DNA of 45,131 nt from a virus, in the IMG/VR virus record IMGVR_UViG_3300031578_011240, positions 1-45,131 of that record; one strand, given 5' to 3'. A program made the position numbers and the translations under genes. The notes beneath the pieces were generated by a model. The model made no database searches and was not told where the DNA came from. It worked only from the letters and a program-made list of their open reading frames with translations. Positions 4,233-36,214 of this stretch are shown here, piece after piece (the first letter of the stretch is position 1; each line of letters begins with the position of its first letter).

Positions 4233-4783
4233 TGCCTGGAAGAGGAAGCTACGGCCCCGGAGGCAAGTGGATCTACAGCCGAGCGAAGAAGCTCAGGGCG
4301 AAGAACCCGGACATGTCTGAGGGCGCCTCATTCGCCATCGCCACCCAACAGGCCCACAAGGTCAACAAGAGTCCCAAGGGCTTCCGCACGCCCGAGGGCA
4401 TGGCTACCGCCAAGGCCAAGATGACGGGGCCAGTCAAGGAGTACCGCAAGACGGCCATGTGGCGCAGCTTCGCTAACGAGATGCTGAAGATCTCGATGGC
4501 GCCCGGAGACGTGGTAGGCCAAGCAGCTGCGGGCCCAGGGCCGCTGCCCGGTGGGGGCGACGCACCCTCAAATCCCCTCACAGGGGGCGCCCTAAGCGAC
4601 ACGAAAGGTCCCCAGGCCTCGGCGGTGCCCAAGGGCGCCGTGAAGTCTCTTGGACCGGCTCCGGCGTCTGTGGTGAGCCCTGAGAAGGCGGGCCTGCCCA
4701 ATGCGGGGGTCTCCGCAGTCGGCGCGCCGAAGCCCATAGAGCCGGGTGGAGGGTCAACGAGTGGACAAACCCGTGCAAGCTAA
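4232..4783 (+). CDS. Small basic protein with KWIYSRAKKLRAKNP-type motif and recurring tag, 183 aa
   Basis: The N-terminus (G-K-W-I-Y-S-R-A-K-K-L-R-A-K-N-P, later F-A-I-A-T-Q-Q-A-H-K, and P-E-G-M-A-T-A-K-A-K-M) is a basic, helical segment of a type I recall from other phage minor virion proteins; the family name is not certain. At nt 4451-4495 it carries T-A-M-W-R-S-F-A-N-E-M-L-K-I-S, a version of a motif that recurs in the proteins at 4820 and 35705. The C-terminal ~95 residues are Gly/Pro/Ala/Ser-rich and probably disordered. ATG start in a TAATG overlap. Possibly a packaged or ejected protein, by inference from the tag. Confidence 0.7.
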   Translation: MPGRGSYGPGGKWIYSRAKKLRAKNPDMSEGASFAIATQQAHKVNKSPKGFRTPEGMATAKAKMTGPVKEYRKTAMWRSFANEMLKISMAPGDVVGQAAAGPGPLPGGGDAPSNPLTGGALSDTKGPQASAVPKGAVKSLGPAPASVVSPEKAGLPNAGVSAVGAPKPIEPGGGSTSGQTRAS

Positions 4784-4820
4784 GGCAAAATCCGATCTAG
4801 CTGCGGCGGAGCGTGGATAA
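4761..4820 (+). CDS. Possible 19-aa peptide upstream of 4820
   Basis: A GTG at 4761, preceded by GGAGGG at 4748-4753 (spacing 7), opens a 19-codon frame (M-D-K-P-V-Q-A-K-A-K-S-D-L-A-A-A-E-R-G). Its TAA (4818-4820) overlaps the ATG at 4820 in the TAATG style used by neighbouring genes. The ribosome site and the coupled junction suggest translation, either to make a peptide or simply to deliver ribosomes to the next gene. It overlaps the end of the 4232-4783 gene by 23 nt. Confidence 0.35.
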   Translation: MDKPVQAKAKSDLAAAERG

Positions 4821-5089
4821 TGGATACGACAGTCCTGCAAGGGTTCTTCAATGAAATAGAGTGCATAAGCGCCCAAGAGAAGACGGCCAGCATCAGTGGA
4901 GCAATTCTGCGTGGTGCGGCGAGGCGTGCAGCGAAGCGACCAGTGGAGACTGTGGTCTTGGCGCGCGGTGCCAAGGGTAGGGTCGAGCGCGGCAAAAGGC
5001 GTCACCAAGAGACGATGCGCGCGCTCGATGAGAATAATCCCTACCCGGCCGGCTGGGTGGCGCTTGGAATGCGCCCAAGGAGAGGCTGA
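4820..5089 (+). CDS. Small basic protein with N-terminal recurring tag, 89 aa
   Basis: The N-terminus T-T-V-L-Q-G-F-F-N-E-I-E-C-I-S (nt 4826-4870) closely matches the T-A-M-L-Q-G-F-Y-A-E-M-E-K-I-A segment of the 35705 protein and the T-A-M-W-R-S-F-A-N-E-M segment of the 4232 protein. The rest is arginine/lysine-rich (R-G-A-A-R-R-A-A-K-R-P, G-K-R-R-H-Q-E-T-M-R), predicting a nucleic-acid- or membrane-interacting peptide. TGA and the next ATG overlap (TGATG). No known domain. By inference a small tagged virion or internal protein. Confidence 0.65.
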   Translation: MDTTVLQGFFNEIECISAQEKTASISGAILRGAARRAAKRPVETVVLARGAKGRVERGKRRHQETMRALDENNPYPAGWVALGMRPRRG

Positions 5090-6054
5090 TGGCACCGACC
5101 CCTGAGACTGTAAAATTCTACCTCACGGACCAGAACACCGACCCGATACTTGGCGTCCTCGTGCGCGTGTTCGATGCGGCCGGCGCCGTGTTCCAGACGC
5201 AGGATGTGACTGTGGATGTGGCGGGCGATGCTGTCGCCGAGGTGACGCTCAACGGCGACACCGTCCCGATCAGCTACACCATCCGGATGTCCAAGACCGG
5301 TGTGGCGTTCGATGGCAGCCTGGGGAACGACAGCAAGAGCCCCCAGCTCATCGACGTCTACAGTCCAGCGGCAGGAGCTCCAACGGGGAAGAACGACTTC
5401 GACATCCAGGGCGAGACGTTCACGCTGCCCGCGGCCATAGACGCCCGGCTGTGCCGGGCGAGCGGCTTCTTCAAAGACGCATCCGGCAGGCCCTTGGTCG
5501 GGTTGGACATCAAGATCGTGAACCAGTTCAGGCCGGCCGTGGTGGACGGGTTCGCCATTATGGGAGAGCGCCTAGACCTGCGCACGGATGAGAATGGCTA
5601 CGCCCAGGTGGATCTCTACCGTGGTGGGGAATACTGCGCATGGGTCCAGAGCGTCCAGACGGCGATGGCAGACCCCGAGGGGGCTATCGTCTTCCCGCGC
5701 GATGTCGTGGTCCCCGACCAGACTTCGATCAACTTGGTCGACCTGCTCTTCCCTGTTGTGGGCACCGTAGGGTACACGCCTGCGTCGGTCTCTGTTGCCG
5801 TCGATGGTGAGCAGGAAGTCACTGTCGTTGTGACAGGAACGGACAAGCGCGTGCTAGCAGGCATCGCGCCTAGCGACGTGATCTACACGGTCGACGATCC
5901 CACTATTGCAGTAGTCCGCCTCGGTGCAGATACGGTAACCATTGTCGGCCTGACGGCTGGCTCTACTCAGCTCACTGCCACGCGAAAAGATTTGACGATC
6001 GTCACGGTGCCGACGCCCGCCGCGTTAGCAGTGCTGCCTATCACCGTGACCTAG
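5089..6054 (+). CDS. Multi-domain Ig-like structural protein, 321 aa
   Basis: Three beta domains can be read. Residues ~1-105 look like a carboxypeptidase-regulatory/SpaA-like sandwich (P-I-L-G-V-L-V-R-V-F-D, then I-S-Y-T-I-R-M). Residues ~122-218 are paralogous to the C-terminal domain of the 3288 protein (shared G-R-P-L-V-G-L-D-I-K-I-V-N and T-D-E-N-G-Y-A-Q-V-D-L). The C-terminus (~228-315) is a Big_2-like Ig domain (D-P-T-I-A-V-V, then V-T-I-V-G-L-T-A-G-S-T-Q-L-T-A). Such domains are common on virion surfaces, where they bind carbohydrate or other proteins. The stop (TAG) overlaps the next GTG. Confidence 0.8.
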   Translation: MAPTPETVKFYLTDQNTDPILGVLVRVFDAAGAVFQTQDVTVDVAGDAVAEVTLNGDTVPISYTIRMSKTGVAFDGSLGNDSKSPQLIDVYSPAAGAPTGKNDFDIQGETFTLPAAIDARLCRASGFFKDASGRPLVGLDIKIVNQFRPAVVDGFAIMGERLDLRTDENGYAQVDLYRGGEYCAWVQSVQTAMADPEGAIVFPRDVVVPDQTSINLVDLLFPVVGTVGYTPASVSVAVDGEQEVTVVVTGTDKRVLAGIAPSDVIYTVDDPTIAVVRLGADTVTIVGLTAGSTQLTATRKDLTIVTVPTPAALAVLPITVT

Positions 6055-6362
6055 TGGGCCTGCTCTTTGTTCAAGCATGCCGCCCGTATGGGCAAGGAGA
6101 GCGTCTGTTGTTGGCGTCCGTCCTGCGCCGCGCTGCCTACGATATCGCTCTCTACCGAGCATCTCCTAAGCTGCGGATGCAGAGGCTGGGGGAGGGGGCG
6201 TACCGCTGGATGTTCGACGACACGGCGGAGCACTTTACTTCCTTCTTGAGCATCTGTACTCTTTTGGATCAAGACCCGCAGGTGATTCGTAGGAAAACAC
6301 TGACACTTACGCGAAAAGACGTGCGAAAGTTCGACCTGGTGGACGCACATGGCTGCCTTTAA
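6054..6362 (+). CDS. Small helical protein resembling a widespread bacterial ~100-aa family, 102 aa
   Basis: The GTG start overlaps the upstream TAG. The protein is helical: a first segment (L-A-S-V-L-R-R-A-A-Y-D-I-A-L-Y), then E-G-A-Y-R-W-M-F-D-D, then F-T-S-F-L-S-I-C-T-L-L-D-Q-D-P-Q-V-I-R-R-K. This order, a helix ending in a Trp-containing acidic turn followed by 'F-(S/T)-F/S-x-x-(V/I)-C-x-x-L-x-x-D-P-x-x-(I/L)-R', matches a small uncharacterised protein type I associate with many bacteria and phages. It may have a DNA-binding helical fold. It overlaps the next gene by 14 nt. Regulatory or structural role unknown. Confidence 0.65.
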   Translation: MGLLFVQACRPYGQGERLLLASVLRRAAYDIALYRASPKLRMQRLGEGAYRWMFDDTAEHFTSFLSICTLLDQDPQVIRRKTLTLTRKDVRKFDLVDAHGCL

Positions 6363-8868
6363 GACCGCAGAAATCGAGGCCGCAGTCTCCCAGTTCGTCA
6401 AGGCGAACGTGGTCGAGGAGCGGGACGAACTCGGGCCGGTCAAAGAGGACGTCAAGTTCTCCGAGGTGCTCGAACTCATCTCCTCGACGTTGATCTTCGA
6501 CCCCAACTCCATATTCTACGTCATCTTCTTGGCCACCAACCGGCTGAGCACGGACGTGGCGGCTACCCTCGTGGTGGTTGAGGATATCCAGACCGCGATC
6601 GCAGAGGTCAGCCACCGGACGAAGGACATCACACGCACGACGCTGCTGGGGGATGCGGCTGCGGCCCTGCTCGAGGTGGACACCATTCTCAGCAGTCGTG
6701 ACGCCCTCAGCAACAGCGCATTCAACCGCTACCTGTCCTCCACGAACGCGTTCGTTGGCGTGTCGCTGGAGCCGAACATCAAGTCCGGCTCCGATCTCAT
6801 CAGGCCCCCGCAGAAGGCGCGAACAGACGCACGCACTGCGTTGGCTACGTTGGCCACGAGCTACGCTGACCATCTGGCGGTTCTCGCGCAGCTCCAGGAA
6901 ATGCTGACCGAGTTCAACGCCCTCAACTTGCCCGTCCTCGCTATTCAGGATTCGGTACGGAAGGCGCGGCGCGATCTCAAGTCGCTGCAGGCCACGTTCG
7001 AGGACACGGCTACTACTCGAGACGCCAAGATAGCTGAGTCTCGAGACGCGTACCTCCGGATCACTGCCGGCAAGGCAGTCCTGAATAGCTACAACACGGT
7101 CTCCGACCCTTCCAGCCCACGTCTCCAGTCTACCGCCGCACTCACTGGGCGCGCTGCCATCCCGCTGGGGGACGGCGTGCTGACAAAGGTTGAGGTGTTG
7201 GGCACCAAGTCAGCTCCTTGGGAGATTGACACCGGTACGAATGACGAGTTCAAGGTCGCTGCAGACGGCGCACTCGAAACGACGTATACGATCGTGCCCC
7301 CGACGCGCCCGAGCGTCACAACCTTCTTGGATGAGACTTGGGATGCAACAGGCCCAGCGGTGGCCTACCAAGTCATCGTGACCACGCAGGACAAGCTCGA
7401 GATCGATGGCCTAGCGCCGCGCGTGGTGCTGACTGCTGGTGCGAATCGCACGGCGGCGAACATCGCTTCGGACATCAACACCTGGGCAACGGCCAACAGC
7501 TTCCCGTATACCGCATCATCCCCCGGCGGGTTCGTCAAGATCGAGAAGACGTCGGGCGGAGCGCAGCGCATTCGCATGACGGCGTTCAACGGCACTGATC
7601 GCGCTGCGATACTAGCCACCTACACAGCGCTAGGCTTCTACGAAGGGCAGGAGGACACTGTCGCTGGCGTGACGGCCGCAGAACTTGCTTCGCAGATCAA
7701 TGCGGTCGGCGAGCTTGTAGCTGAGGTGGAGCTGACGCAGTTCGATGAGGGCGTCAGCGGGGCTATGTTCAGCTCCACTGAAATCGACTTGCCTTTGGGG
7801 ACGTTGGTCAGCCTCTCCCACGTTGATGACATCCTTGTCCTGCTCTCGGGTCAAAGTGCGGGAGCGCATCGGATTGTCAGCATTACCCAGCCGGGAGTAG
7901 ACCGCATCACAGTGGCAACAACGCAGCCGTTTGTGCTTGCTGAATCGGGTATCGAGTTCCGCATCATCCGCGAGCTGCTGAAGATTACGTCGCCGGCAAC
8001 GGGACTGACGGGGCAGATTATCGTCGGTGCGGGCAACGCCAACACCACCCTTGGGTTTACCGCTGCCGCCGCCAAGAGCACGACTACAGGATTCGAGGCA
8101 GTCCTAACGGCAGTTCCCCAGGACTTCACTCAGTCTGATGTGGTTGAGGGAGATCTCGTCCGCATTACGATAGGGGTGAATACGACCCAGCATGTGATCT
8201 CGGAGATCACAGGCAGCAACAAGCAGCTGGAAATCACACCAGCGATCGACGTGTCCCTGACGGGGCTGACCTTTCAGATCTTGTCCGCTGCGGCTGTTGC
8301 GTACGAGAACTTCATCGCTGCGGCTGTGGTGTGGGACCTGCTGCGAGAAGCTAGCGATTTCGAGGACGATACTCGAGAGCTCGAGCGTGTGATGAATCCG
8401 TTGTTGGCGAACAAGCGTCCATCCGCTTTCCAGATTGCGGACGCCAACACCGCGGCCACTGCGTTGCTCAGCTTGCTCAATTCCCTCAGCACGGTGCTGA
8501 CCGATTTCGAGGTCAATGCTGTGGGGCGCGTCGACGCGGCGCTGAAGATGCTGCAGGAGCGCGGCATGGACCGCGGGTTCGACACGCTGATGGATGGGGA
8601 GATTGCGAACTTCTTCGGCTTCGACAAAGACGACGCGTCGAGCAGTGCTTTCATGTTGAAATCCATGCGGAATGTGGTGGTGGAGGACCTGCCGCAGTCC
8701 AAGCTAGACGACGATGGAGACGACATTCAGCACGACGAGCTGGTGGTAGACACTGACGCGGAACTCGACTTCAGCGACACGGATAGCGAGGATGAGGACC
8801 TGCACCCGCTTGGCGAGATCCCCGACTTGGATGATACTGACGCGAGCACCCTACGGCAGAGGCTCTAA
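6349..8868 (+). CDS. Large baseplate/tail-associated structural protein, 839 aa
   Basis: The N-terminal ~250 residues are mostly helical (coiled-coil-like around residues 170-240, e.g. S-V-R-K-A-R-R-D-L-K-S-L-Q-A-T-F-E-D). The middle contains a flagellin-IN-like module (~345-430, with T-A-A-N-I-A-S-D-I-N-T-W and a terminal A-L-G-F-Y-E-G) and two copies of a small beta module (~465-535 and ~560-635, G-x-L-V-x-I... H-x-I-x-x-I). A helical region follows. The C-terminal ~70 residues are extremely acidic (D-T-D-A-E-L-D-F-S-D-T-D-S-E-D-E-D). Directly upstream of gp25-like and baseplate J genes, it is probably a baseplate component. Exact T4 equivalent not recognised. Confidence 0.75.
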   Translation: MAAFKTAEIEAAVSQFVKANVVEERDELGPVKEDVKFSEVLELISSTLIFDPNSIFYVIFLATNRLSTDVAATLVVVEDIQTAIAEVSHRTKDITRTTLLGDAAAALLEVDTILSSRDALSNSAFNRYLSSTNAFVGVSLEPNIKSGSDLIRPPQKARTDARTALATLATSYADHLAVLAQLQEMLTEFNALNLPVLAIQDSVRKARRDLKSLQATFEDTATTRDAKIAESRDAYLRITAGKAVLNSYNTVSDPSSPRLQSTAALTGRAAIPLGDGVLTKVEVLGTKSAPWEIDTGTNDEFKVAADGALETTYTIVPPTRPSVTTFLDETWDATGPAVAYQVIVTTQDKLEIDGLAPRVVLTAGANRTAANIASDINTWATANSFPYTASSPGGFVKIEKTSGGAQRIRMTAFNGTDRAAILATYTALGFYEGQEDTVAGVTAAELASQINAVGELVAEVELTQFDEGVSGAMFSSTEIDLPLGTLVSLSHVDDILVLLSGQSAGAHRIVSITQPGVDRITVATTQPFVLAESGIEFRIIRELLKITSPATGLTGQIIVGAGNANTTLGFTAAAAKSTTTGFEAVLTAVPQDFTQSDVVEGDLVRITIGVNTTQHVISEITGSNKQLEITPAIDVSLTGLTFQILSAAAVAYENFIAAAVVWDLLREASDFEDDTRELERVMNPLLANKRPSAFQIADANTAATALLSLLNSLSTVLTDFEVNAVGRVDAALKMLQERGMDRGFDTLMDGEIANFFGFDKDDASSSAFMLKSMRNVVVEDLPQSKLDDDGDDIQHDELVVDTDAELDFSDTDSEDEDLHPLGEIPDLDDTDASTLRQRL

Positions 8869-9209
8869 TGGCGCCCAAACCAAAAGCGAGTGCTGCTAGC
8901 AAACAGAACAAGCTGAATCTCAAGATGCGCGAGATTCTTGGGAATGCCTACTCCTTTGTCCGGGGAAGGGAGTACACTCGGCAAACGGCAAATATCACCT
9001 ATGAGCAGCTGCTCGATCGCGCTATCCATGCGATTGAAGGCACGACTGGGCAGAGCGAGGTGAGGGACACCAAGCTCAATCGGATTAAGAAGATCAAGGA
9101 GGAGATCGGCAAGGCGGTCACTACGGTCAAGGGCAAGCCTCCCGAGTCCTGGAGCATCGAGAATGATTCGCGTGTCACCAAGAAAGACGCGACCAACACG
9201 AAGGAGTAG
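8868..9209 (+). CDS. Small basic protein, 113 aa
   Basis: ATG in a TAATG overlap with the 839-aa gene. The sequence is lysine-rich and helical (L-N-L-K-M-R-E-I-L-G-N-A-Y, then T-K-L-N-R-I-K-K-I-K-E-E-I-G-K-A), with polar ends. There is no known domain, signal peptide or TM. It sits between two baseplate genes in one operon with a 3-nt gap to the next start. A baseplate assembly helper or minor component is the reasonable guess. Confidence 0.7.
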   Translation: MAPKPKASAASKQNKLNLKMREILGNAYSFVRGREYTRQTANITYEQLLDRAIHAIEGTTGQSEVRDTKLNRIKKIKEEIGKAVTTVKGKPPESWSIENDSRVTKKDATNTKE

Positions 9210-9212
9210 TCG

Positions 9213-9863
9213 GTGGATCTGCAGTACGCACAGTTCAGCGATTCACTGAGCCTGTCGGGCGCGCTCGAGATCCCTGGGCTTCTGCCGCGCACGCTGGAGC
9301 TCACAGGTCCTGACTTTCGTAGCGCCATCATGGTCGAGATAAACGACGAGGAATCGCCCTCGTTTGTAGTCGCCAGCAAGACCTCCATCCTGGCGCAGGT
9401 CCCCACCAGCCAGCTCAAAGCACGCATCCGCTCCATCTCTATCCTGAGCTCAGAGTTCACGGCCACCATCAAGAGCAACATTCGCTTCCGAATCGGGAAC
9501 GACCCCCGCGGAGTGACTGGGCTGCGGGTGATGATGCAGACATTCCTGAAGATGTTGTTCACGACGGTCGGCACTGATGCGTTTCAGCAGTCGCTTGGCG
9601 GCAGCGCGTTGAAGAATATCGGGCAGAACTTTGCTGTCGATCAGACGCGCAACATGCTGTCTGAGTTTGCCATTGCGGTCAGCCGTACGGAGCAGCAGCT
9701 GCGGGTGCTACAGAGCAGGCAGACGCGCATAGCCGATGATGAAAAGCTGCTGTCTGCCAACCTATTATCCTTGCGGTTTGACGCCAACGCTTCGGCGTTG
9801 ATCGCTCGCGTAGAGCTCATCTCGCAGGCGGGCACGCTAGCAATCACGAACTTGGAGCTGTAG
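9213..9863 (+). CDS. Probable gp25-like baseplate wedge protein, 216 aa
   Basis: GTG start 3 nt after the preceding stop; the stop abuts the ATG of the baseplate J gene. The middle (N-D-P-R-G-V-T-G-L-R-V-M-M-Q-T-F-L-K-M-L-F-T, then G-T-D-A-F and G-G-S-A-L) follows the GPW/gp25 pattern in which a 'V-x-G-x-x-x-L-x-Q-x-x-L-K-x-L-L-T-x-x-G-x-D' helix-turn precedes a small beta domain. A helix (R-T-E-Q-Q-L-R-V-L-Q-S-R-Q) and a final beta hairpin (A-R-V-E-L-I-S-Q-A-G-T-L-A-I-T) also fit. In T4-like baseplates gp25 is the wedge protein beside gp6, matching the adjacent J gene. It is longer than T4 gp25 (132 aa). Moderate confidence in the family. Confidence 0.6.
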   Translation: MDLQYAQFSDSLSLSGALEIPGLLPRTLELTGPDFRSAIMVEINDEESPSFVVASKTSILAQVPTSQLKARIRSISILSSEFTATIKSNIRFRIGNDPRGVTGLRVMMQTFLKMLFTTVGTDAFQQSLGGSALKNIGQNFAVDQTRNMLSEFAIAVSRTEQQLRVLQSRQTRIADDEKLLSANLLSLRFDANASALIARVELISQAGTLAITNLEL

Positions 9864-12800
9864 ATGGCCACCGAAGAGCTAAAAGACTTCGTCGAAGAGC
9901 GCCTCCGCGCATTCGATCCAGATATCGATCTCACTGATGGCTCGCCGGCTCAGGACCAGGTAGTCGACCCGGTAGTTCGCAGGTTCCAGCCTGACCCGTT
10001 CGAGATGGACGTGGAGGCTTTCCTGAGCGCGAGGCTGCAGCAAGAGTTCCCGGACATGAACATCCGGGAGGGCTCGGGCCTGCGCGACCTGTTGGTGAAG
10101 CCCAACCAGATCTTGATGGACCCCATCTCTAGGGAGGTTCAGCTCATTAAGCAGGGTCAGTCGCTGGCCAACCCCGAACTCCTGGCGCCCAGCGAAGCAG
10201 ACGCCTTGGTGGCCAACCTTTTCGTCACGCGTCAGACCGGAGGCTTGTCCACAGGCACCGTCCGGATGTTCTTCAACGCGCCTGTAGCAATCAACATCAG
10301 CGTGGGCAACGTCTGCTTCACCAGCGAGGGGTTGCGCTTCCTGCCAACTACGCTGCAGAGCATCTCGGCCGAGGCCATGCTTTTCAACCAGTCGGGCAGC
10401 CTGTTCTACTTCGATATCCAGGTAACTGCAGAAGACACCGGCTCCGAGTACAACGTCAAGAAGGGCGACATCGTAGGGATCACTAACCTCAACGCGGCTG
10501 TCCGCGTTGACAACCTCGAAGACTTCGAGGATGGGTTGGATGAAGAGAGTACCGACGAGCTGGTCCAGCGCGCGGAGACCAGCATCACTGAGCGCTCGCT
10601 TGTGGTGGCTCGCGGCGTGTCTGCACGCCTGACTGAGCAGTTCGATGATCTACAGCATCTACAGATCGTAGGGATGCTCGACGTGGGGATGGAGCGCGAC
10701 ATCCTCACAGGCGGAGATCTTGGTCCGGTGCTGCTCTCGGGCAACGGCGGCTTCACTACGGACGACGATGACGGGGACGCGAACACGCTGTTGTTCCAGG
10801 AGCGGAACGCCCCATTCACGACGTTCTTCGGTGCGCCGGGAGTCGTTGAGAACTACTGGCTCACCTACTCAGAGCTCATCACGGTCTACCAGGCCCCGAT
10901 CACGGGGGAGGTTCTCAGCGGGGATCTGACGCACTTCAAAATCGGAGTCTTTGGTTCGGACAGGACGCACTTCGAAGCCACTGATATCGGCCTCCACATC
11001 ATCACATCCGCGACCAACGCCGCCAATCAGGGCGTCGCCAAGATCGTAGCAATTGTGGATGACCAGACTGCCAAGCTGGATCGCGTGGGTGTGGTAGAGA
11101 CGGGCATCGGCTACGTCTTTTGGAGGCCGTCGAAGGATGTGGAGATCGAAGAGGTCTTGACGAGCGGTGAGCTGAAGCTCAAAAGCACCATCTCGGCCAA
11201 CATGGAGTTCGCCTCCTGGACGATCCGCAAGAAGGAGATCACTATCTCCGGTATCCCGGGCGGCATCCTCTTCACTGACGACGCTGCTGCGATTGCCATC
11301 CAGTCGGATGAAGTTCACATCGGCGGAGCTACCGACTTCTACGTCCGTGGGACGGGCGTGTCGGAGTCCGAGCTGGACATCGCTTCTATCTCAGACGAGA
11401 CACCCCTCACCAGCGCCGACAGCGGCTCTTCCGATAACTCGACTGTGGAGAAGTCCGAGTTCTTTCAGGACACGAGCGCGGACTTTGTAGCGCTGGGCGC
11501 CGCGGTAGGCATGTCTCTCATCGTTGAGACGGGCGTAGACGCCGGCACAAAGACCATCTTAGCCGTGGGCGTTGCGCCCGGCGGGGCAAGCGTCACCACG
11601 TATTTGCAGGTGACCCCTGCTTTCACTTCGGTTGCAGCGGGCTTGCGCTACAAGATCATCGATGACATCGACATCAGCTTGAACGAGCCTCGCACGATTC
11701 GAGACATGGGTGAGGACGTCCAGACTTTGCAGCTCAGCGACGTCGTGACTACTGCAGCGGCCATCGACTTCCTGTCGGTCGGGGCAGAAGTTGGTGATAC
11801 GCTCGAGCTGCTAGAGGGCAACGACAAGGGTAAGTACAGCGTCCAGGCTATCGGCGGCGTAGGGAACAAGAACCTTCAGATCTCCGCGCAGCTGACCTCC
11901 ACATCGAACAACATCGCGTGGGAGTTGTACAAGGCACAGGACGGCCTCGACCTGCCGCTGGTCCGCATCACTTCGATCGATCTGCTGGATAGCTCGAACC
12001 AGCCGACGGGTGATACGATTCCCTACGCCGACCCTGTAGACGCGCGCACGTCGGCGTTCTCCAATGCCGGCCTTGGCACCAAGGTCTCCACCACCGACGC
12101 CATCACAGGCATCGTGGGAACCGTAGACCTGGACGGAGCGATTTATCCTCTGGGCACTGTGGTGCTTTCGGTGGCGGTGAACGACGCGGTGGATGTGGAC
12201 ATTACGTTGACGGGCGCCACCTCGAAGACTGACCTGCTCGATACGATCAACACAGCCATCTTCAACATCGCGGGCACCTTGGCGATTGACGGCGAGTCCC
12301 GCTTGACCCTCCGCTCTGGAGATCGCTGGCTGCGGGTAGAGCCGGAAGCGGCCAGTGCGGGCACGGGGTACGCCGCCATCGGGCTCGACCCCCTTGGGGA
12401 GGACAACCGCCAGATCAAGAGTGCAGGCAACATCAGCGACTGGACCTCGTCGGCCTACGACCTCAAGGTCGAGAAAGATGTGGTCAGCCTTACAGAGGGC
12501 GGCAACATCGGTCACCTCTATCTGGTGGCAGTCGAGAGCAGCCCAAATCGTCTCATCGTTCTCGACTTCGACGAGACTACGGGGCGAGCTCGGTTCCTCG
12601 AGCCCGGCACGGGGATAAGCCTCAGCGCGGGCTCTCGCTCCTACGGCAAGGCGCGTGTGTACTTCCTGGACCCGACATCATTCGAGGCACGCGGCAACTG
12701 GCGCCCGCCCCTGAAGAACACGACGACATTCCCTGCCAACGTGGCGATTGCTGCAGCTGGTGGTGCGGCTGGTGCCATCGCATCAGATGAGCCTGCGCGC

Positions 12801-14228: not shown

Positions 14229-14539
14229 TCGGGGCCTTCCAGGATTGGGATGGTCGGCACGTATGCCTTGGCCCGGTTACCCATCGTGAGCTGGATGCCG
14301 GTGTGTGGATCGAAGACGCAGTCGCAGTTGTCGCATTGGAGCAGGTACCGCGGTAGGGGCTCTTGGTGCCGGAACAGCAGGCGGCTGTCCCCTGTTTTCG
14401 TGAACGCGTTGCCTCCACACCCGGGGCAGGTCTGCCCCCGATAAAACTTCTCTCGCTCTTCTTGCAGAGGAGAGATGACATCTTTGTGCCCTTCTAGTAA
14501 CTTGAGGGCGATCTGCGGGTCCATCTCTTTGAGATCCAT
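14225..14539 (-). CDS. Zinc-ribbon protein, 104 aa, sole minus-strand gene in the late arm
   Basis: Two Cys pairs (C38-P-G-C41 and C69-D-N-C72, plus C74) form a zinc-ribbon knuckle pattern with a basic strand between them (R-L-L-F-R-H-Q-E). An N-terminal helix (D-P-Q-I-A-L-K-L-L-E-G-H) precedes the ribbon. Zinc ribbons of this size often bind nucleic acid or RNA polymerase, so a transcription regulator is plausible but unproven. The gene runs against all its neighbours, its stop shares CTAG with the baseplate J stop, and there is no ribosome site before the ATG. With a candidate -10 only 8 nt upstream, the message may be leaderless. It looks like an inserted moron-type gene. Confidence 0.75.
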   Translation of the reverse strand: MDLKEMDPQIALKLLEGHKDVISPLQEEREKFYRGQTCPGCGGNAFTKTGDSRLLFRHQEPLPRYLLQCDNCDCVFDPHTGIQLTMGNRAKAYVPTIPILEGPD

Positions 14540-14541
14540 GT

Positions 14542-14553
14542 GATAACATTATC
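14542..14553. promoter_or_regulatory. Inverted repeat GATAA-CA-TTATC, possible operator
   Basis: A 5-bp inverted repeat with a 2-nt centre lies 3 bp upstream of the zinc-ribbon ATG, overlapping the candidate -10 of that gene. It is the most AT-rich spot of the intergenic region and lies between divergent genes, where an operator would be expected. No repressor is identified. Confidence 0.4.
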
Positions 14554-14574
14554 GCGGCTCTTGCTGAGGTGCAA
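14548..14574 (-). promoter_or_regulatory. Candidate promoter for the zinc-ribbon gene
   Basis: Read on the minus strand, TTGCAC (14569-14574) is followed by GATAAT (14548-14553) with a 15-nt spacer, or by TAATGT with 17 nt. The -35 box lies back to back with the -35 of the rightward promoter at 14576. A start from here would give a very short leader or a leaderless mRNA. Confidence 0.4.
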
Positions 14575-14575
14575 G

Positions 14576-14605
14576 TTGACCGGGTGGTGCACAGGGCCGT
14601 AGAAT
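14576..14605 (+). promoter_or_regulatory. Strong sigma70-like promoter before 14641
   Basis: TTGACC (14576-14581), an 18-nt spacer and TAGAAT (14600-14605) match the bacterial housekeeping promoter consensus closely. The expected start near 14612 gives a ~29-nt leader ending in GAGGTGAT, a near-perfect ribosome site, just before the GTG at 14641. It would drive the 14.6-30.5 kb block. The -10 context (CCGTAGAAT) is identical to that of the promoter at 30460. Confidence 0.65.
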
Positions 14606-29800: not shown

Positions 29801-30463
29801 GTGAAGGACTACGTCAGCTCGCCGCTTTGGATGCAGAAGTACGTGGCCCAGGGCAAGTTCTTTGAGATCGACAAGTTTTTCCGCTTCTTGGTCCGCGCGG
29901 ATATCGACACCTTCAATCTGACTAACTTGATCTTCGCCATTGATTTCGTTAAGAAAATCAAGCCGCACTACACCTTCCCGTTGTTCGTCGTCCTCAAGAA
30001 CGTCGACCCGGTGGAGGTCGATGTCGGGGATCTGTTGACGGCCAATGTGGTCGCCAGCTTCTTCGACACCTTCTGCCCAGACGAGGAGGGGTCGTATCGC
30101 TGGGATGATACTGACGAATCCGGTAATTGGAACCATATCTACGATGCGGTTCCGCCCCCGCCGCGGTTCCTCTACGACACGCACCGGCTGTGCCCAACGG
30201 AGAATCTGTGGGTCCACATCTCCTACACCCATCCGGGAGGTGCGGGGTGGTTCTACGACACCATTTGGGCTTATGATGACGGCGACACGACTGGGGACAC
30301 GTTCTCGAATGATCTGCTACCGTTGAGTGGACCGGACTCGTCACCGCCAGCGCCCTATGGCCCGCTGGTCGGGACGATCTTCTACGATGCGGGCGCTGCG
30401 GGCGATCCACCGCCCGGCCCGCCGATTCCGGCGGGGGTCTATCACCGGGAGCGTACCCTTTGA
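26873..30463 (+). CDS. Large baseplate/fibre-anchor protein with ConA-like and PKD domains, 1196 aa
   Basis: It starts at the ATG directly after the previous stop. Residues ~20-220 are ConA-like (F-T-V-E-T-T-F-K-P, H-T-L-R-I-V-V-D-G). A PKD-type domain follows near 228 (R-P-I-A-D-P-G-A-D-Q-T, then F-D-P-E-G-E-P-L-T-Y-D-W), interrupted by an insertion and closed by V-V-N-D-G-V-L-D-S. From ~430 a different, partly helical region appears (I-W-D-H-L-A-D-F-W-N-L-L-E-D-R) with a flagellin-IN-like module (I-A-A-Q-I-N-A-A-L-G-F) and a long region resembling conserved baseplate-attached tail proteins (L-W-W-A-Y-F-G-G-P, V-Q-I-L-L-G-L-P-F-A-E-A-E-G). The C-terminus is proline-rich. Its stop overlaps the -35 of the next promoter. 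Confidence 0.7.
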   Translation: MPITYTFVTSLIIPTTADFDCMDVGEGSMPNILLFPEVTASRGAPWFTIDGSNDLVITSDDGVLSRFVMDLPISQKFTVETTFKPSVLPNDLTQLNNYRFFIGGYDKQDNAGGVLVSQLGIALVASFGLSAFVIPGSQNLFTEGEEYHTLRIVVDGVTNTMNVYVTKTDQLGITGHVLRYTSAAPLTPGGVLDSVQIEVVGQATKPITGKFSTLRVSCTQALIPNQRPIADPGADQTANIGSAVTHDGRESFDPEGEPLTYDWRLKDAPDSSRFKSAGTGGVSIDDGDADGFTPIFDGGTDAFSITNMPLLQPGDHLIIDAVLYEVAATRWSFNSTTGKFDRDSPGTWNDDEVVVVPDTIPDSLTGQAYKVLHSATYFSDRDVAQPSAIADIVGVYIVELVVNDGVLDSLPAEALLNVNQTSTALGCIPDVGFIWDHLADFWNLLEDREKVETAWSGFAQAAAAQLLTAWQVDYNKSLLDTQRVFQRRWLSYSTLLEETAPDDATIRIIRGPIFTLDLTAGANVNGKTLQILLDGGGVETVTFVGGGSLTATTIAAQINAALGFTGAQTLLATVVVKGAATYVKLEHSMLLRIRPQGTANADLGFSATEYTQNDLAGFEGGTQVAGKFLTFLGKNVTATIADDPDLDFTALGINSSDLLVRGTTGYKILKVALDSTSGESRALTLTDPLSDDTLDDWLIPSVVVSDVDDYSLALVQAGDLAWFEIKDTVNRTPPQFVYCEIVGLSGRRIGFNPQPLLEAYAGVPSNFTTKFKGVKYTQAIPVNALVLEIPRLQEIIKDPPGFLSENIDYTIDDTLGSNAIQFTAGTFSLTDPPPDTFWAEVTYLDNRTAIEDNFGRLVNFKVDDLDTRTDDLDYLSAVRGLWWAYFGGPALERVQTGVQILLGLPFAEAEGVVESLEANFSATEGRLSIRDTADKNILRTYFYPLLAGLAINELTGELIAEGDTVSQFAPLSGGVEVKDYVSSPLWMQKYVAQGKFFEIDKFFRFLVRADIDTFNLTNLIFAIDFVKKIKPHYTFPLFVVLKNVDPVEVDVGDLLTANVVASFFDTFCPDEEGSYRWDDTDESGNWNHIYDAVPPPPRFLYDTHRLCPTENLWVHISYTHPGGAGWFYDTIWAYDDGDTTGDTFSNDLLPLSGPDSSPPAPYGPLVGTIFYDAGAAGDPPPGPPIPAGVYHRERTL

Positions 30464-30488
30464 TAACCAGACGTTTAGTCCGTAGAAT
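30460..30488 (+). promoter_or_regulatory. Strong sigma70-like promoter before 30509
   Basis: TTGATA (30460-30465), a 17-nt spacer and TAGAAT (30483-30488) are near-consensus. The -35 overlaps the TGA of the upstream gene. The predicted start near 30495 falls at the GGAGGAG ribosome site, giving a leader of only ~14 nt. The -10 and its CCG prefix are the same as in the promoter at 14576, suggesting a shared late-promoter design. Confidence 0.65.
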
Positions 30489-30508
30489 GCGGCGGAGGAG
30501 CTGAAAGC

Positions 30509-31201
30509 ATGTTCGGGTTCCGCGAACTCATCCAAGCAAAGAGCAACGTGCACATTGTTGCGCGTGAGCGGGGCAAGAAGGTTCCGAACCTCTGCCGCGA
30601 TAGCCACAACGTCTACGTCAACTTCGGCCGGCAGTACCTAGCGGAAGTAATTTCCCCTTCCGACGCTACGTTCACCGCCCACTACAACGACGCGCCTGTT
30701 CGCGTGGTCCGGTATATCGGGCTCGGCATCGGGGGCGACTCGCAGCTCATCAACATTGCGGGCACTTACCCCACGCTGAACGCGCATTATCCCGGCCTGC
30801 AGGTCCAGGACGACACGGTCCTGACGACGCAGTTCCTAGAGCGCCCTGTGAAGGTGACGGGCACTGCGGGCGTCGGCGCCTCCGCTGGTAACTGGTTGAG
30901 CGCGGTCACAGCGCCCCCGACCTTCAGCGGCTCGCCGATCTCGAAGGTGTCGTTCGACACCCTGTTCACCAACTCCGATGTCCAGCTCAGCGGCGCCTAT
31001 CCGTCCGTCCCGCTTTCCGAAGTGGGCCTCTACCTCTCGAATGCGGTGGCCAGTCGGACGTCAGAAGAGGTGTACGATTACGGGGCATCCCCGTACATCA
31101 ACATCTCGACGCGCCAGCAGCTGATCGCATACAACACATTCGACACGCTGTCGAAGACCGCCTCGATCGCACTGGAAATCCATTGGGAGATTCAGTTCTA
31201 G
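30509..31201 (+). CDS. Baseplate/fibre-attachment protein, 230 aa
   Basis: ATG with GGAGGAG ~9 nt upstream; first gene of the third plus-strand block. The N-terminus has D-S-H-N-V-Y-V-N-F-G-R-Q-Y-L-A-E-V-I-S, a pattern I associate with short phage tail proteins that lie before tail fibres. The middle is beta-rich. The C-terminal region (L-S-E-V-G-L-Y-L-S-N, then A-S-I-A-L-E-I-H-W-E-I-Q-F) resembles a baseplate-adaptor beta domain. It immediately precedes the tailspike candidate, so an adaptor that docks the spike to the baseplate is a reasonable inference. Confidence 0.65.
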   Translation: MFGFRELIQAKSNVHIVARERGKKVPNLCRDSHNVYVNFGRQYLAEVISPSDATFTAHYNDAPVRVVRYIGLGIGGDSQLINIAGTYPTLNAHYPGLQVQDDTVLTTQFLERPVKVTGTAGVGASAGNWLSAVTAPPTFSGSPISKVSFDTLFTNSDVQLSGAYPSVPLSEVGLYLSNAVASRTSEEVYDYGASPYINISTRQQLIAYNTFDTLSKTASIALEIHWEIQF

Positions 31202-31210
31202 GAGATACAG

Positions 31211-34200
31211 ATGCCCCTTCCGCACGTACACGGCAACGCATCCGGTGAGATTGCCCACAACGCTATCTACGACACGGGCATTACTCCGGGCTCGACCCTC
31301 GGAAAGTTCATTGGATTCGGGGAAGAGGGCACCACGGCGGTCGCTAACCGGGCGCACTGGGCATTGTCCGAGAACATCGACTTCGTCTACCAGATCATGG
31401 CGGCGGATCGCGCGCTACCTGCTGGCGCGTCGTGGTTAGTCCCTGGTGGCGGCGCGAATACGTTCCAGTTCACCGGCGATGTGTGGGTGGGTGATGCTGG
31501 CTATCCTACGATAGAGAACGAAGGGCTCCTCCTACTCTTCTCTGTTTTGGATGATCAGTACAACGAGCTGACGGACGGCGGGTCCAACGAAGTTCGCGTC
31601 GCTGTCGTGCGCGACACAACCAACGTCACCAACGCCTACAAGGCCGGGTTCGAGACCAACGCGGTCATCACATTCAAGACTGTCGATCCGACCACTGGCG
31701 CGGATGTGGTCAACCCCTACACCATCCCGGCTGCCACGAACGTCCGCATCCTCTACGCCGAGAAGGGGAACCTCGAGAGCCTACCGATAGACAGCTTCAT
31801 CAAGTTCAAGGTCCACTCTGGCGCCGAAGTAGAGGCAGGCGTTTTGCTCCAGGACGGCACGCGGGTGATGACCGCGGACCTCAATCTGGACGACAACGAT
31901 CTCATCAACATCAACAACCTGGTAGGCACCCCGGCCAACAACCTCACCTTGCAGTCGGCTCTGAATCTCATCCTGCAGAGTGTCTCCGGTGAGGTAATAT
32001 TCGCCGATAGTCGACTTGGGGGCAGCGTCTTCCTCACAGAGGCCGGGACCACGTCGCTGGATGGCTTCTCGACCAGTCTTATAGGGGCTCTCAACAGCAA
32101 GACCAACGTCTCTAACGCGTTCCAGTCCAATCGGAGCGTCGATCAAACAGGGACGATTGTCTTCACGGGGGGCACAGGTGAAGTCGCTTGGCCGACTTTG
32201 ACGGTACTGATCGACGGCGAGTACCGAACCATCGCCCCAGGCAATCTTACTGCCACCAATTTCGCTTCCGTTTTTGTGGCAGTAGTGACTGCTGCAGGCA
32301 CAGTGCTAGAGCGAGCGCCGCAGTCCGTTCAGTCGACGGACACTCCGATCGCAGCCTACACCTGGAACGGTGCTGCGTTTACGCTCGCGCTGGACATTCG
32401 CCGCAAGCTCGATGGCCGCACAGGGCAGTTGGAGATCACCTGTGGTTCGGCTTTCGGCACGGATTTCACGTCCAACCAGTTTCAGGAGGCGCTCGAGTTC
32501 GCGTCGCGTATGTCGTTCCCTGGGTTGGGAATTGGCTCTGTCATCGTGCGCATCTCCGGGCTGGCCGTTGCTCCGACCACGCCTAACACGGAACTCGATA
32601 TCCGCAGTCCGATCACAGTGCTTGGGTATGGGCCTGACCTGTCGGTCATCTCTTCGGACGAAAACAACGGACACACCACAGTTCTGTTCGACTGCAACAG
32701 CCACCGCGTCCGTTTCGAGAACCTGACGCTGAAGCATTCGGGCGACACGCAGGCGGGCACGCTGGGCTGTTTCCGCAATGCTGGCGATGGCAGTATCTTC
32801 CGTAATCTGAAGTTCACCAGTGATGGGGGTACCTTCGACGTAGGTTTCGGCAACGCCTTCTCTTGGACGGCGGCGGCGAAGAACATCCTTATCGAGAAGA
32901 TCGAGTCGGGAGGCACTGGCCTGACGAGCTACTTCGTGGTCGGCTCGCAGCTTGATTTCGACACAGCTTTCCTGACCGACAGCGTCGTTCGTGACGTCTA
33001 TGTCTCGGCCTGGGGCCCACTGGCAATCGGCGGCATCATCGCCAATGGCGACGGCAACAAGCTGTCCAATATTGAGTTCCCCACCGGGCTCGATGACTTC
33101 GGCATGGTCGTGGGCAACGAAACGCTCGTGGACAGCTGCAAGTTCCGGATGAGCGGCGCCACCAACTACACGGTCACCAGCAACGGTACGACGGACAACA
33201 TCTCTGCTCCGGCGGGCAACATCCAGACGGCGACCGTTGCGCTCGGCGCATTCACCGCGCCGATGGTCGGCGGCTACGTGCTTGTTTTTGGCGCGATCAA
33301 CGGGGCCAACGTTGGCATGTTCTTGGTCACTGCGCAGACGGGGACCACGATCTCCTACCTCAACCCGACCGGCGTGGTTGAGGCTGCGTCCACTGCCCAG
33401 TTCGACATTGAGCCTGCGGGCATTCTTTACTACCCGCTATCGTCGCCGGCGTACGACAATACCACCACGATCAGGGACTGCCTGTTCCTGCGCATCAACG
33501 GCGCGGCACTGCGTTACACCCCAATCAACGATACGGGGATCGTGGCCAGCGTGGTCATGCGGAATTGCCGGACCAACCAGGTACACAAACCTGTAGACCT
33601 TCAGTGGGTGCGGGCAGTGGACGCTTCATCGATGTGTCACGTCAACGGAAACCATTTCCGAGACACGGACGACTTTGTTTCCCACGTGGAGAACCTCTGG
33701 AGGTTTCACTTCACTGACAACGTTTGCACGACGACAACTGGTACAGGGGTTATCATCGGATTCAACGCTGGCGGGCTGATTCAGAACAACTTCTTCGCGG
33801 GCTGTGGCTCAGCCGGCGCTTTCCCCTCCATCCTCGAGGTCAGCATTGGCGCTGTTTCCGTACAGATCGTCAACAACATCTTTGGTGTTGCGGGAGCTCC
33901 CGCGGCTTCGAGCCAGGTTGTGCTTTGGCGCCTTGCTACTGTTACGGGCAACCAGTTCATCGCAACAGGTGGGGCGGCCGACATCACTGGCGTCAATTTG
34001 AAGTGGTTTGTCTTTGGAGCAGGGTCGTCTACCATCACGAGCAACATCTTTGCGGGGCAAACTGGCGCCGGAGTTTTGGTGAATGGTGGTGCGAATCAGT
34101 GTCGCATCGAGGGCAACCAGTTCCTCGACATCCCCGAACTCAAGATCGGCATCCATGTTCTCAACGCCACGAACACGTTGATCCAAGGCAACCACTTCGG

Positions 34201-34936
34201 CGGAGCGTTCTACGTTGGACAGGGGATCTTGGTTGCCAGCACAGGCGCTTCTGACGGAGAAAGCACGCAGATTATCGGAAACCATTTCCGGGACGTGCAG
34301 GGAGATGGTCCCGCGCTCTGGGCGATTATCGAGATCAATGGCGGTGGTGGTGGCGGCAAGAACGCCATGATCAACAACAACTACTTCCACAATTGTGGGC
34401 AGAACGAGGCGAGCCATATTCAGCACACGATCTATGCCCTCTCACTCAGCGCGCAGGTTTGCCACAACCACCTCCATAACCACGTGAACTCTTACGACGG
34501 CACGGGAACGTGCTTCGGGATCTACGTGCCGCAAGAAGGCATCTTGGTGTCGGGCAACGTCCTCTACCACAACATCGGCGCGGCGATCCCGGCCGGACAG
34601 ACGTACGGAATCTTCACCCACATGGCCGGTGTGGCGTACCGGCGGCAGGTGATCACCAACAACGTCATCAACTGGTTCGGGACGAATGCGGGAGGCGCGG
34701 GCAAGACGCTTTACGCACTCTACATTGGCGATAATGATGATGTTGTGGTCGCTAGCAACTACTTCAGAGAATGGGATGCTACGGGCTCGACGCAGTTGGC
34801 AATCTTCGCTCCTGCTGGAACAGCCAACTATTTCATCGGCAATATCAGCCGGACCCGCTCCGTGAATGTTAACGTAGGGTCCAAGCCCACAGGTACTGCT
34901 ATCAAAACGGATTTCAATACAGGTACCGGCTTCTAG
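31211..34936 (+). CDS. Tailspike/tail fibre with right-handed beta-helix, 1241 aa
   Basis: ATG with AGGAGAT 6 nt upstream. The N-terminal ~230 residues form an attachment domain (H-W-A-L-S-E-N-I-D-F-V-Y-Q). From ~440 to ~1220 there are many PbH1-type coils: I-Q-N-N-F-F, I-V-N-N-I-F, V-T-G-N-Q-F, I-T-S-N-I-F, I-E-G-N-Q-F, I-Q-G-N-H-F, I-I-G-N-H-F, I-N-N-N-Y-F-H-N, V-S-G-N-V-L. This is the pectate-lyase-like right-handed beta-helix typical of tailspikes that bind or cut polysaccharide. No unique catalytic triad is assignable, so depolymerase activity is possible but not shown. No C-terminal chaperone cleavage motif seen. Confidence 0.85.
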   Translation: MPLPHVHGNASGEIAHNAIYDTGITPGSTLGKFIGFGEEGTTAVANRAHWALSENIDFVYQIMAADRALPAGASWLVPGGGANTFQFTGDVWVGDAGYPTIENEGLLLLFSVLDDQYNELTDGGSNEVRVAVVRDTTNVTNAYKAGFETNAVITFKTVDPTTGADVVNPYTIPAATNVRILYAEKGNLESLPIDSFIKFKVHSGAEVEAGVLLQDGTRVMTADLNLDDNDLININNLVGTPANNLTLQSALNLILQSVSGEVIFADSRLGGSVFLTEAGTTSLDGFSTSLIGALNSKTNVSNAFQSNRSVDQTGTIVFTGGTGEVAWPTLTVLIDGEYRTIAPGNLTATNFASVFVAVVTAAGTVLERAPQSVQSTDTPIAAYTWNGAAFTLALDIRRKLDGRTGQLEITCGSAFGTDFTSNQFQEALEFASRMSFPGLGIGSVIVRISGLAVAPTTPNTELDIRSPITVLGYGPDLSVISSDENNGHTTVLFDCNSHRVRFENLTLKHSGDTQAGTLGCFRNAGDGSIFRNLKFTSDGGTFDVGFGNAFSWTAAAKNILIEKIESGGTGLTSYFVVGSQLDFDTAFLTDSVVRDVYVSAWGPLAIGGIIANGDGNKLSNIEFPTGLDDFGMVVGNETLVDSCKFRMSGATNYTVTSNGTTDNISAPAGNIQTATVALGAFTAPMVGGYVLVFGAINGANVGMFLVTAQTGTTISYLNPTGVVEAASTAQFDIEPAGILYYPLSSPAYDNTTTIRDCLFLRINGAALRYTPINDTGIVASVVMRNCRTNQVHKPVDLQWVRAVDASSMCHVNGNHFRDTDDFVSHVENLWRFHFTDNVCTTTTGTGVIIGFNAGGLIQNNFFAGCGSAGAFPSILEVSIGAVSVQIVNNIFGVAGAPAASSQVVLWRLATVTGNQFIATGGAADITGVNLKWFVFGAGSSTITSNIFAGQTGAGVLVNGGANQCRIEGNQFLDIPELKIGIHVLNATNTLIQGNHFGGAFYVGQGILVASTGASDGESTQIIGNHFRDVQGDGPALWAIIEINGGGGGGKNAMINNNYFHNCGQNEASHIQHTIYALSLSAQVCHNHLHNHVNSYDGTGTCFGIYVPQEGILVSGNVLYHNIGAAIPAGQTYGIFTHMAGVAYRRQVITNNVINWFGTNAGGAGKTLYALYIGDNDDVVVASNYFREWDATGSTQLAIFAPAGTANYFIGNISRTRSVNVNVGSKPTGTAIKTDFNTGTGF

Positions 34937-34944
34937 GAGACCTC

Positions 34945-35400
34945 ATGGACAAAATCACAGCAGTCATTCTGAGCTGGCAGGCCGTCATGCTCTCGTTCGC
35001 GGCTTTCGCTATCCTTGGTGTTGTGCGCGGCATGGGCACCAAGAAGAAGGACGGCAAGGTCGTAGGTGGCTGGGCACAGAGCAGGGTATTCAAGATGCTC
35101 TTGCCGATATACCCCTACGTCCTCTGCGGTGGGTTGGTGATGGTCCCGGGGATCCCTCTGCCGGAGAAGCTGACCGGCGCGCTAGGAGCTAAGCTCCTCT
35201 ACGCCATCTGGTGCGGCTGGTTCTCAGACAAGGTCTACCAGGTCATCAAGTCGGTGCTCGAGAAGGGGTTCAACATGAAGTTCGGAGCGGACAAACCGGA
35301 CGCCGTGGCGACTCCTCCAGCACCTCCTGTTGCTCCTTCGGCACCTGAGCCCGCGCCTGCGACCGACCCGGACCTCGAGACTCCCACGAAACCGGAGTAA
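34945..35400 (+). CDS. Small membrane protein with three hydrophobic segments, 151 aa (holin candidate)
   Basis: ATG with AGGAG 8 nt upstream of the tailspike-adjacent start. Hydrophobic segments lie at residues ~4-27 (A-V-I-L-S-W-Q-A-V-M-L-S-F-A-A-F-A-I-L), ~48-68 (V-F-K-M-L-L-P-I-Y-P-Y-V-L-C-G-G-L-V-M-V) and ~77-96 (G-A-L-G-A-K-L-L-Y-A-I-W-C-G-W-F). The last ~40 residues are Pro/Ala-rich and acidic, a typical exposed tail. Three TMs and a position just after the tailspike fit a holin or antiholin. That role is inferred from topology and context only. Confidence 0.7.
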   Translation: MDKITAVILSWQAVMLSFAAFAILGVVRGMGTKKKDGKVVGGWAQSRVFKMLLPIYPYVLCGGLVMVPGIPLPEKLTGALGAKLLYAIWCGWFSDKVYQVIKSVLEKGFNMKFGADKPDAVATPPAPPVAPSAPEPAPATDPDLETPTKPE

Positions 35401-35402
35401 TC

Positions 35403-35726
35403 ATGGCGAAGGCTTGGGCATGGCTAAAGACGAATTGGAAGTGGCTCATCCTGCCTCTCTGGATAGCTTCGGTTGTCCTGGTTTGGATCTTCCGCGGCGG
35501 CGATAAGGCACTCTTCCCCACGTCCGGCACAACGGACGCTGCAGCTGACCAAGCCGTGGCGGCAAAGGACAAGGCACTGGCCGAGTTCCGTGCGAAGCTG
35601 GACGAGCTCTACAAGAAGGCCGAGGCTCAGATGCAGGACGCATCTGAGGAGCAGGTCAAAGAGCTCGAGCAACTCAAGGACAAGCCACTAGATGAGGTCG
35701 CAGCATGGATCGACAACCTTTCGTAA
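35403..35726 (+). CDS. N-TM coiled-coil protein, 107 aa (i-spanin-like)
   Basis: ATG with GGAG ~6 nt upstream. A single membrane anchor at residues ~12-31 (W-L-I-L-P-L-W-I-A-S-V-V-L-V-W-I-F) follows a short basic-aromatic N-terminus. The remaining ~70 residues are a charged coiled-coil (K-D-K-A-L-A-E-F-R-A-K-L-D-E-L-Y-K-K-A). This type II, N-in architecture matches inner-membrane spanin subunits (Rz-like), though it is not proof. No embedded lipoprotein (Rz1) is evident inside it. It overlaps the next gene by 22 nt. Confidence 0.65.
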   Translation: MAKAWAWLKTNWKWLILPLWIASVVLVWIFRGGDKALFPTSGTTDAAADQAVAAKDKALAEFRAKLDELYKKAEAQMQDASEEQVKELEQLKDKPLDEVAAWIDNLS

Positions 35727-36214
35727 AGACCGCCATGCTCCAGGGTTTCTACGCCGAGATGGAGAAGATAGCTGCGGCCCGGGCGTTGGAGAAGCTGGCG
35801 GCGACAGGCCTCAGCCTTGAGGAGCTCGTGAAGCTGGCCGAGGCGGACGCGGAGATCTACCTGCTGATGAAGCAGGCAGGGTTCTTCTCACGCGTGGGGA
35901 GAGCGACCCAGAAGGGCATCGATGCAGCGAAGCCCAAGCTCCGGAACGCCTACAACGCTGCCCAGGTTCGCACCGGAGACTTGATGCAGGGGAGCTTTGG
36001 GCATGGGACTGAGCACGCGATTCAGAAGCTGCACACCACGGCATCCCCCACCAAGGCTGCTCTCGTCTTTGCAACAGATCCTCACGTCCGGAAGGCGGTG
36101 GGCGAGGGTGCACGCAAGGCGGGCAAGAGGGTCAGTACGGGTGCCCAAAGCCTGCTAGAGCGCGCGCGCAATGCAGTGATGCCGTCACCTGGACTACGTC
36201 CGGCCTACGCCTAA
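35705..36214 (+). CDS. Tagged small helical protein, 169 aa
   Basis: ATG at 35705 with GAGGT 6 nt upstream; it overlaps the previous gene by 22 nt. The N-terminal T-A-M-L-Q-G-F-Y-A-E-M-E-K-I-A (nt 35729-35773) is the clearest copy of the recurring tag seen also at 4451 and 4826. The rest is basic, alanine-rich and amphipathic-helical (V-G-R-A-T-Q-K-G-I-D-A-A-K-P-K-L-R, then R-K-A-G-K-R-V-S-T-G-A-Q-S-L-L-E-R). Low complexity, no signal peptide, no TM. The stop overlaps the next ATG (TAATG). Together with the tag and the polyvalent-protein neighbour, an internal or ejected virion protein is the favoured guess. Confidence 0.7.
   Translation: MDRQPFVKTAMLQGFYAEMEKIAAARALEKLAATGLSLEELVKLAEADAEIYLLMKQAGFFSRVGRATQKGIDAAKPKLRNAYNAAQVRTGDLMQGSFGHGTEHAIQKLHTTASPTKAALVFATDPHVRKAVGEGARKAGKRVSTGAQSLLERARNAVMPSPGLRPAYA

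Follow-up and report, generated by a model that had tools for sequence, protein, structure and literature searches.

A recurrent peptide tag ending in a predicted prohead-protease site on putative head cargo of large myovirus-type phages

The IMG/VR virus record IMGVR_UViG_3300031578_011240 (here the window, meaning the whole stretch of 45,131 nucleotides that was analysed, possibly a fragment, with a proteome of 14,586 aa) carries a 15-residue peptide tag in three otherwise unrelated proteins. Our analysis indicates that this tag is probably an N-terminal capsid-targeting propeptide of a clade of large myovirus-type phages, with a site for the prohead protease, K-[ILTV]-A, as its last residues. 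The genomes that bear it are true relatives of the window, myovirus-type phages of which many measure 150-210 kb, and the group as a whole is large and mostly uncultured.

Results

The three copies in the window are real and far above chance. They and their carriers are as follows, with scores from a profile made without the window:

4451..4495, + strand: tag TAMWRSFANEMLKIS, aa 74-88, behind a basic N-terminal domain; 18.8 bits
4826..4870, + strand: tag TTVLQGFFNEIECIS, aa 3-17; 14.8 bits
35729..35773, + strand: tag TAMLQGFYAEMEKIA, aa 9-23; 26.7 bits
4232..4783, + strand: tagged protein of 183 aa, of a family that adjoins scaffold-like genes in relatives
4820..5089, + strand: tagged protein of 89 aa, basic
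35705..36214, + strand: tagged protein of 169 aa, with five K-x-A sites within residues 1-58 and a basic body after them

A preliminary description of this DNA had listed these peptides together with a fourth, weaker one at 39418-39462, and all four agree exactly with the translation at those positions; the three main copies are in frame, on the + strand and within plausible genes. Each of them is the top match to the other two across the window proteome (leave-one-out BLOSUM scoring, in which every other 15-mer scores lower), and shuffled proteomes yield 0 such cases. A profile built from other phage genomes only picks exactly these three tags in the window, the next window match reaching 3.6 bits and the best reversed-window match -0.3 bits. 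The carriers are indeed unrelated beyond the tag, as had been claimed, the sole significant pairwise alignment being the tag itself (aa 7-24 of protein 35705 with aa 1-18 of protein 4820). Likewise, the DNA of the copies is identical at 20-27 of 45 bases and in 2-6 codons, so that conservation is at the protein level. The fourth peptide fares differently: as a tag it scores -9.5 bits in its original register and -4.0 bits in the best nearby one, and is ruled out as a true copy. A motif model finds no further copies in the 45 kb window, but the relatives hold up to 18 tags per genome.

The tagged window proteins are too divergent for direct sequence searches, which yielded no relatives, and relatives were reached via the tag pattern alone, for which IMG/VR was searched as a degenerate DNA pattern. 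The [G]FxDELxKIA pattern occurs in 42 stretches and its [A] version in 99; most matches are in frame and near a start codon, and several contigs contain two to four. A looser DNA pattern yielded 45 matches in 14 whole records against 0 in the backward control, and in ten genomes, retrieved in full or for the most part, the window-free profile detects 67 tags with scores of at least 9 bits, against 0 in reversed proteins. Altogether, the census comprises 221 distinct tags in 208 viral loci, with 0 in reversed frames and the consensus M-x(3-12)-[G/A]-F-x-D-E-L-x-K-I-A; it includes 35 seed tags from these genomes and is thus partly true by construction, whereas the window test is not. The E is present in 221 of 221 tags (the scan filter favoured E) and the K in 220 of 221. 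The closest in-frame ATG lies 4-16 codons ahead of the F in 142 of the 221, against a null expectation of 24%, and less than 4 codons ahead in 28 more, making the tag a short N-terminal element, in most of its copies, of otherwise unrelated proteins. Bacterial and archaeal genomes, scanned as a collection, rarely contain the pattern, and then mostly as single internal chance matches. The exception is L120 (JAFDEI010000105.1), a contig binned with a Deltaproteobacteria MAG (metagenome-assembled genome), which has four tags and is a possible clue to the host of the clade. Literature searches, with preprints and subscription journals outside their coverage, found nothing on this motif or on a similar description.

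The kinship of these genomes with the window extends well beyond the tag. The putative structural or baseplate proteins 3288, 5089, 6349 and 9213 of the window and its baseplate-J protein 9864 have collinear homologs in G002, G012, G010, G009, G013 and others, as do several further window proteins.

The proteins that carry the tag are diverse. When 62 of them are aligned, they match at the tag only (mean column identity 6%), and the consensus MxxxxxxGFxDELxKIA emerges unaided. Their Pfam matches comprise an SNF2 helicase, a polyvalent protein with InPase and KTSC domains, MazG/P-loop, a C92 papain-like amidase and a weak kinase match; HExxH-like metallopeptidases and ADP-ribosyltransferase-like (ART-like) proteins are recognised by eye only, and almost none of the tagged proteins match PHROGs. 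Of the tagged bodies, 92% have a positive net charge, in contrast to the clade's other virion proteins, whose charge is mostly negative or close to zero. Of 47 tags, 46 share the strand of the capsid gene, compared to 392 of 679 long open reading frames (ORFs), a background taken from noisy gene calls. Outside the tag, the cargo is depleted in K-[ILVT]-A (13 observed, 24 expected), as would be expected if extra cuts were harmful.

The motif at the end of the tag recurs in the head module. Since greedy tiling produced spurious antisense ORFs in the gene calls of GC-rich genomes, head modules were re-read strand by strand and families collected from all six frames. In G013, the order of the module is terminase, three small proteins, protease, acidic protein, tagged protein, two scaffold-like proteins, a 162-aa protein and the major capsid protein, where scaffold-like denotes position and composition, without a family match. 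Six head-core families contain 556 K-[ILVT]-A motifs, against 97 in shuffled and 88 in reversed sequences, whereas terminase and tail families show no enrichment (30 against 37 expected). The preferred surroundings are [M/I/L/Q/F]-E-K-[I/T/V/L]-A-[S/A/E/G]; K is the sole clearly enriched residue at its position, and S is enriched 3.6-fold after the A. The other half of the tag, as F.[DN]E[LM], occurs just 3 times in the core proteins. K29, within FEK[T/Q]AG, is invariant among 17 divergent proteases, in a variable, low-confidence and likely disordered N-terminal stretch, and K25 and A27 are invariant near the N-terminus of 12 major capsid proteins, a region that is well conserved anyway. A structure model of the capsid protein was poor (pLDDT 42) and was not used. 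The family of the window protein 4232-4783 sits in this module beside scaffold-like genes in relatives, and 16 of its 20 non-redundant homologs carry the tag.

The relatives encode a protease that, as judged from a structure model, has the gp21 fold. The modelled domain (L086:7390-8970, which like its homologs lies outside the window) matches T4 gp21 (5JBL) with an E-value of 5e-5, Z 12.8 and an rmsd of 2.7 over 150 residues, followed by the human cytomegalovirus (HCMV) protease (Z 4.7); it also matches the head maturation protease family phrog_18299 (E 8.7e-6). H110 and S166 (in VSMG) are invariant in 17 homologs, as seen without residue-by-residue mapping onto gp21. The Pfam gp21 family PF03420 found no match in 15 records, and none in control genomes either. 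The protease family also has homologs in Bacillus phage G (17137-17595) and in many mycobacteriophages and related phages, among them Mycobacterium phage I3 and Rhodococcus phage E3. The protease polypeptide of two relatives includes an InPase domain resembling that of the window (L003 3590-5710, - strand; L080 14416-17754, - strand), with K-x-A sites on both flanks in L003, which ties the InPase to the head interior.

The tagged window proteins contain these candidate cut sites:

35765..35773, + strand: predicted prohead-protease site K-I-A, aa 21-23; 18.0 bits, the top site in the window
35792..35800, + strand: predicted site K-L-A, aa 30-32; 12.5 bits
35831..35839, + strand: predicted site K-L-A, aa 43-45; 15.0 bits
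35870..35878, + strand: predicted site K-Q-A, aa 56-58; 10.2 bits, inside the range of reversed-window matches
4880..4888, + strand: predicted site K-T-A, aa 21-23, directly behind the tag; 14.6 bits
4448..4456, + strand: K-T-A, aa 73-75, extending into the start of the tag
4487..4495, + strand: predicted site K-I-S at the tag end, aa 86-88; 10.4 bits, inside the range of reversed-window matches

The large polyvalent protein of the window has possible sites of the same kind near its domain borders:

36508..40230, + strand: polyvalent protein of 1240 aa, with a papain-like region (by eye), a weak glycosyltransferase-28-like region, InPase PF18823 (aa 838-959) and a C-terminal domain (about aa 1000-1120)
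37837..37845, + strand: predicted inter-domain site K-V-A, aa 444-446; 12.1 bits, about that of the best reversed-window match (12.0)
38971..38979, + strand: predicted inter-domain site K-R-A before the InPase, aa 822-824; 6.9 bits, weak
39409..39417, + strand: predicted inter-domain site K-I-S after the InPase, aa 968-970; 9.1 bits, inside the range of reversed-window matches
39418..39462, + strand: possible decayed tag, the fourth peptide above, aa 971-985
39463..39471, + strand: predicted inter-domain site K-G-A, aa 986-988; 5.8 bits, weak

This protein combines several unrelated enzymatic domains with a phage-type InPase (E 1e-45; the MurG/GT28-like match, E 6e-4, is weak) and is thus polyvalent; further K-x-A-type sites near domain borders are K-F-A at 456 and K-A-A at 1157. 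Its C-terminal domain forms a stand-alone tagged protein in G012 (G012_38761) and L170, with N-terminal FRDELCKIA and AFTDELVKIA, while L002, a relative of the same domain, has no tag. As the fourth peptide falls exactly between K-I-S and K-G-A, a short way ahead of this domain, which bears a tag where it stands alone in those two relatives, it may be a decayed tag.

Some cultured phages share the protease and capsid protein of the clade, namely Salmonella phage Arash and the Vibrio phages D69, D148 and D181. Their core proteins are rich in K-x-A (Arash, 45 against 18.5; D181, 42 against 16), with no enrichment in the tail, portal and terminase proteins of Arash (58 against 52). The published virion proteome of Arash, with 116 proteins (PMC10585845), includes the core proteins and gp96, ART-like by eye; its coverage table does not resolve cleavage. 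Arash gp95-gp97 and gp100 (OQ632216 54867-58971) belong to the virion proteins with stronger detection, and gp96 resembles an HGTS-type ADP-ribosyltransferase by eye.

Discussion

What can be concluded about the role of the tag? Of the three functions put forward at the outset, the third being docking to a common virion partner, capsid packaging and action of a prohead protease together make up the best-supported reading. The K-[ILTV]-A that closes the tag is also the motif that abounds in the head-core proteins and that is kept at the N-termini of protease and capsid protein. The tag is N-terminal and widespread, it sits on late-strand proteins resembling injected effectors, and the relatives encode a T4-gp21-like protease. 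In the mechanism that we propose, a short amphipathic helix, GFxDEL, would recruit unrelated cargo to the scaffold core while the head assembles, where the gp21-like prohead protease would cut after the K-[ILTV]-A at the tag end, the scissile bond presumably being that behind the A. The cut would release mature, mostly basic proteins, internal to the virion, that would stay with the DNA and probably be injected into the host. At the same K-x-A sites the scaffold would be cut up, the protease activated and the N-terminus of the capsid protein trimmed, and polyvalent proteins such as the 1240-aa one may be split into their domains. Whether a single N-terminal code, made up of the address helix GFxDEL and the cut site K-[ILTV]-A, is borne by all the proteins that this large uncultured clade injects, with the same cut code turning polyvalent proteins into polyproteins released in the head, is a broader proposal for which we see the chances as evenly balanced.

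How does this compare with known systems? T4 cleavage sites end in E (L/I-x-E), unlike those of the clade, which are predicted to be K-[ILTV]-A. It is quite likely that the tag works as the capsid targeting sequence (CTS) of T4 does, as an N-terminal address removed by a gp21-type protease, but with a different sequence. In those passages of PMC5694885, PMC3012670 and PMC9391042 that cite Mullaney and Black (1996), the CTS of the T4 internal proteins and Alt is, like the tag, an N-terminal element of 10-20 residues on otherwise diverse injected proteins, accompanied by a gp21-type protease and the scaffold core that it cuts; the carriers in the clade are far more numerous and more varied, with the up to 18 per genome noted above. 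In P1, an N-terminal signal of DarB (more than 9 and at most 30 residues) places a large polyvalent-type protein in the head, but no consensus emerged when the N-termini of Dar proteins were compared in that study (PMC9024508), whereas the clade has one consensus on hundreds of proteins. In SPN3US and phiKZ-type phages, N-terminal head propeptides are cut by the phage protease gp245 at a short P3-P2-P1 motif with serine preferred at P1' (PMC5694885, PMC10052503); there the motif is A-x-E rather than K-x-A, and the propeptides are mostly long (>100 residues), with no shared short tag. Polyvalent proteins with the same types of effector domain, including InPase, are predicted to be packaged and injected in excerpts of Iyer et al. 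(2017; PMC5512222), which mention no N-terminal address tag or inter-domain cut motif; in the clade, single domains are often separate tagged proteins.

Could the element instead remain on the mature protein? An uncleaved docking helix, with GFxDELxKIA binding one common virion or scaffold partner and the K-x-A of the core proteins serving as a binding repeat, would agree with the spacing of F, L and I at i, i+4 and i+7, as in an amphipathic helix, and with the scarcity of the GFxDEL half in core proteins, which makes it an element separate from K-x-A. We nevertheless consider it unlikely, as K-x-A, with one fixed K, a fixed small A and then S/A/G, looks like a protease specificity, stands at the protease's own start, where the surrounding stretch is variable, and is rarer than expected in the cargo outside the tag. 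It is more doubtful still that the tag sends proteins elsewhere in the infected cell (to the membrane, a replication compartment or a host factor), unconnected with the head: although several tagged proteins have glycine/alanine-rich stretches that by eye could be membrane-associated, head-core proteins alone have the K-I-A half in common with the tag, unlike proteins of the tail, the terminase or metabolism, and the tags follow the capsid-gene strand.

Descent of all carriers from one ancestral protein, of which only the N-terminus is still alike, also has a very low probability. Several tagged genes do stand in tandem clusters (for example at 34-37 kb and 51-55 kb in G001), but the carrier domains (SNF2 helicase, InPase, papain-like, kinase-like) are unrelated, and other domains can precede the tag, or the tagged domain can be part of a fusion in another genome. 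Chance resemblance was a legitimate concern as long as three peptides, picked after the fact, were all that had been compared; the window-free profile, the empty reversed and shuffled controls and the 221 copies refute it, and we regard its probability as negligible.

Several points weigh against targeting followed by cleavage. Packaging and cleavage of the tagged proteins are deduced from sequence, and the window is without a head module, so that its protease and scaffold are known from relatives only. The genomes behind the K-x-A counts are related to one another, which keeps these counts from being fully independent. One tagged family has its tag only after about 75 residues, and the tag of protein 4820 terminates in CIS instead of KIA, with K-T-A four residues further. 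The inter-domain sites of the polyvalent protein are mostly weak, K-V-A 444 alone reaching the level of the best reversed-window match. Neither Arash nor the D181 stretch yielded a full tag, though they share K-x-A with the clade, and the five T4 N-termini that were scored (ipI, gp22, gp24, gp67 and gp68) stay below 0 bits with the tag profile.

Phage-carried proteins are normally identified only by mass spectrometry of cultured phages. If targeting and cleavage hold true, the cargo of uncultured phages would become predictable from genome sequence, through the tag and the cut motif that marks scaffold and protease. Hundreds of candidate early-acting effectors, many without a known family, are thereby indicated, and with them a protease specificity open to testing and a potential address by which proteins could be loaded into these heads.

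Neighbouring genes

The small membrane-type proteins 34945, 35403 and 40227 (window 34945-40748) have homologs in G012 and L170, and the tagged or polyvalent cargo genes between them vary by genome. The adjoining stretch, 40784-45129 on the - strand, contains genes for a tRNA nucleotidyltransferase (CCA-adding type), a RusA-like resolvase and a Cas4-like exonuclease.

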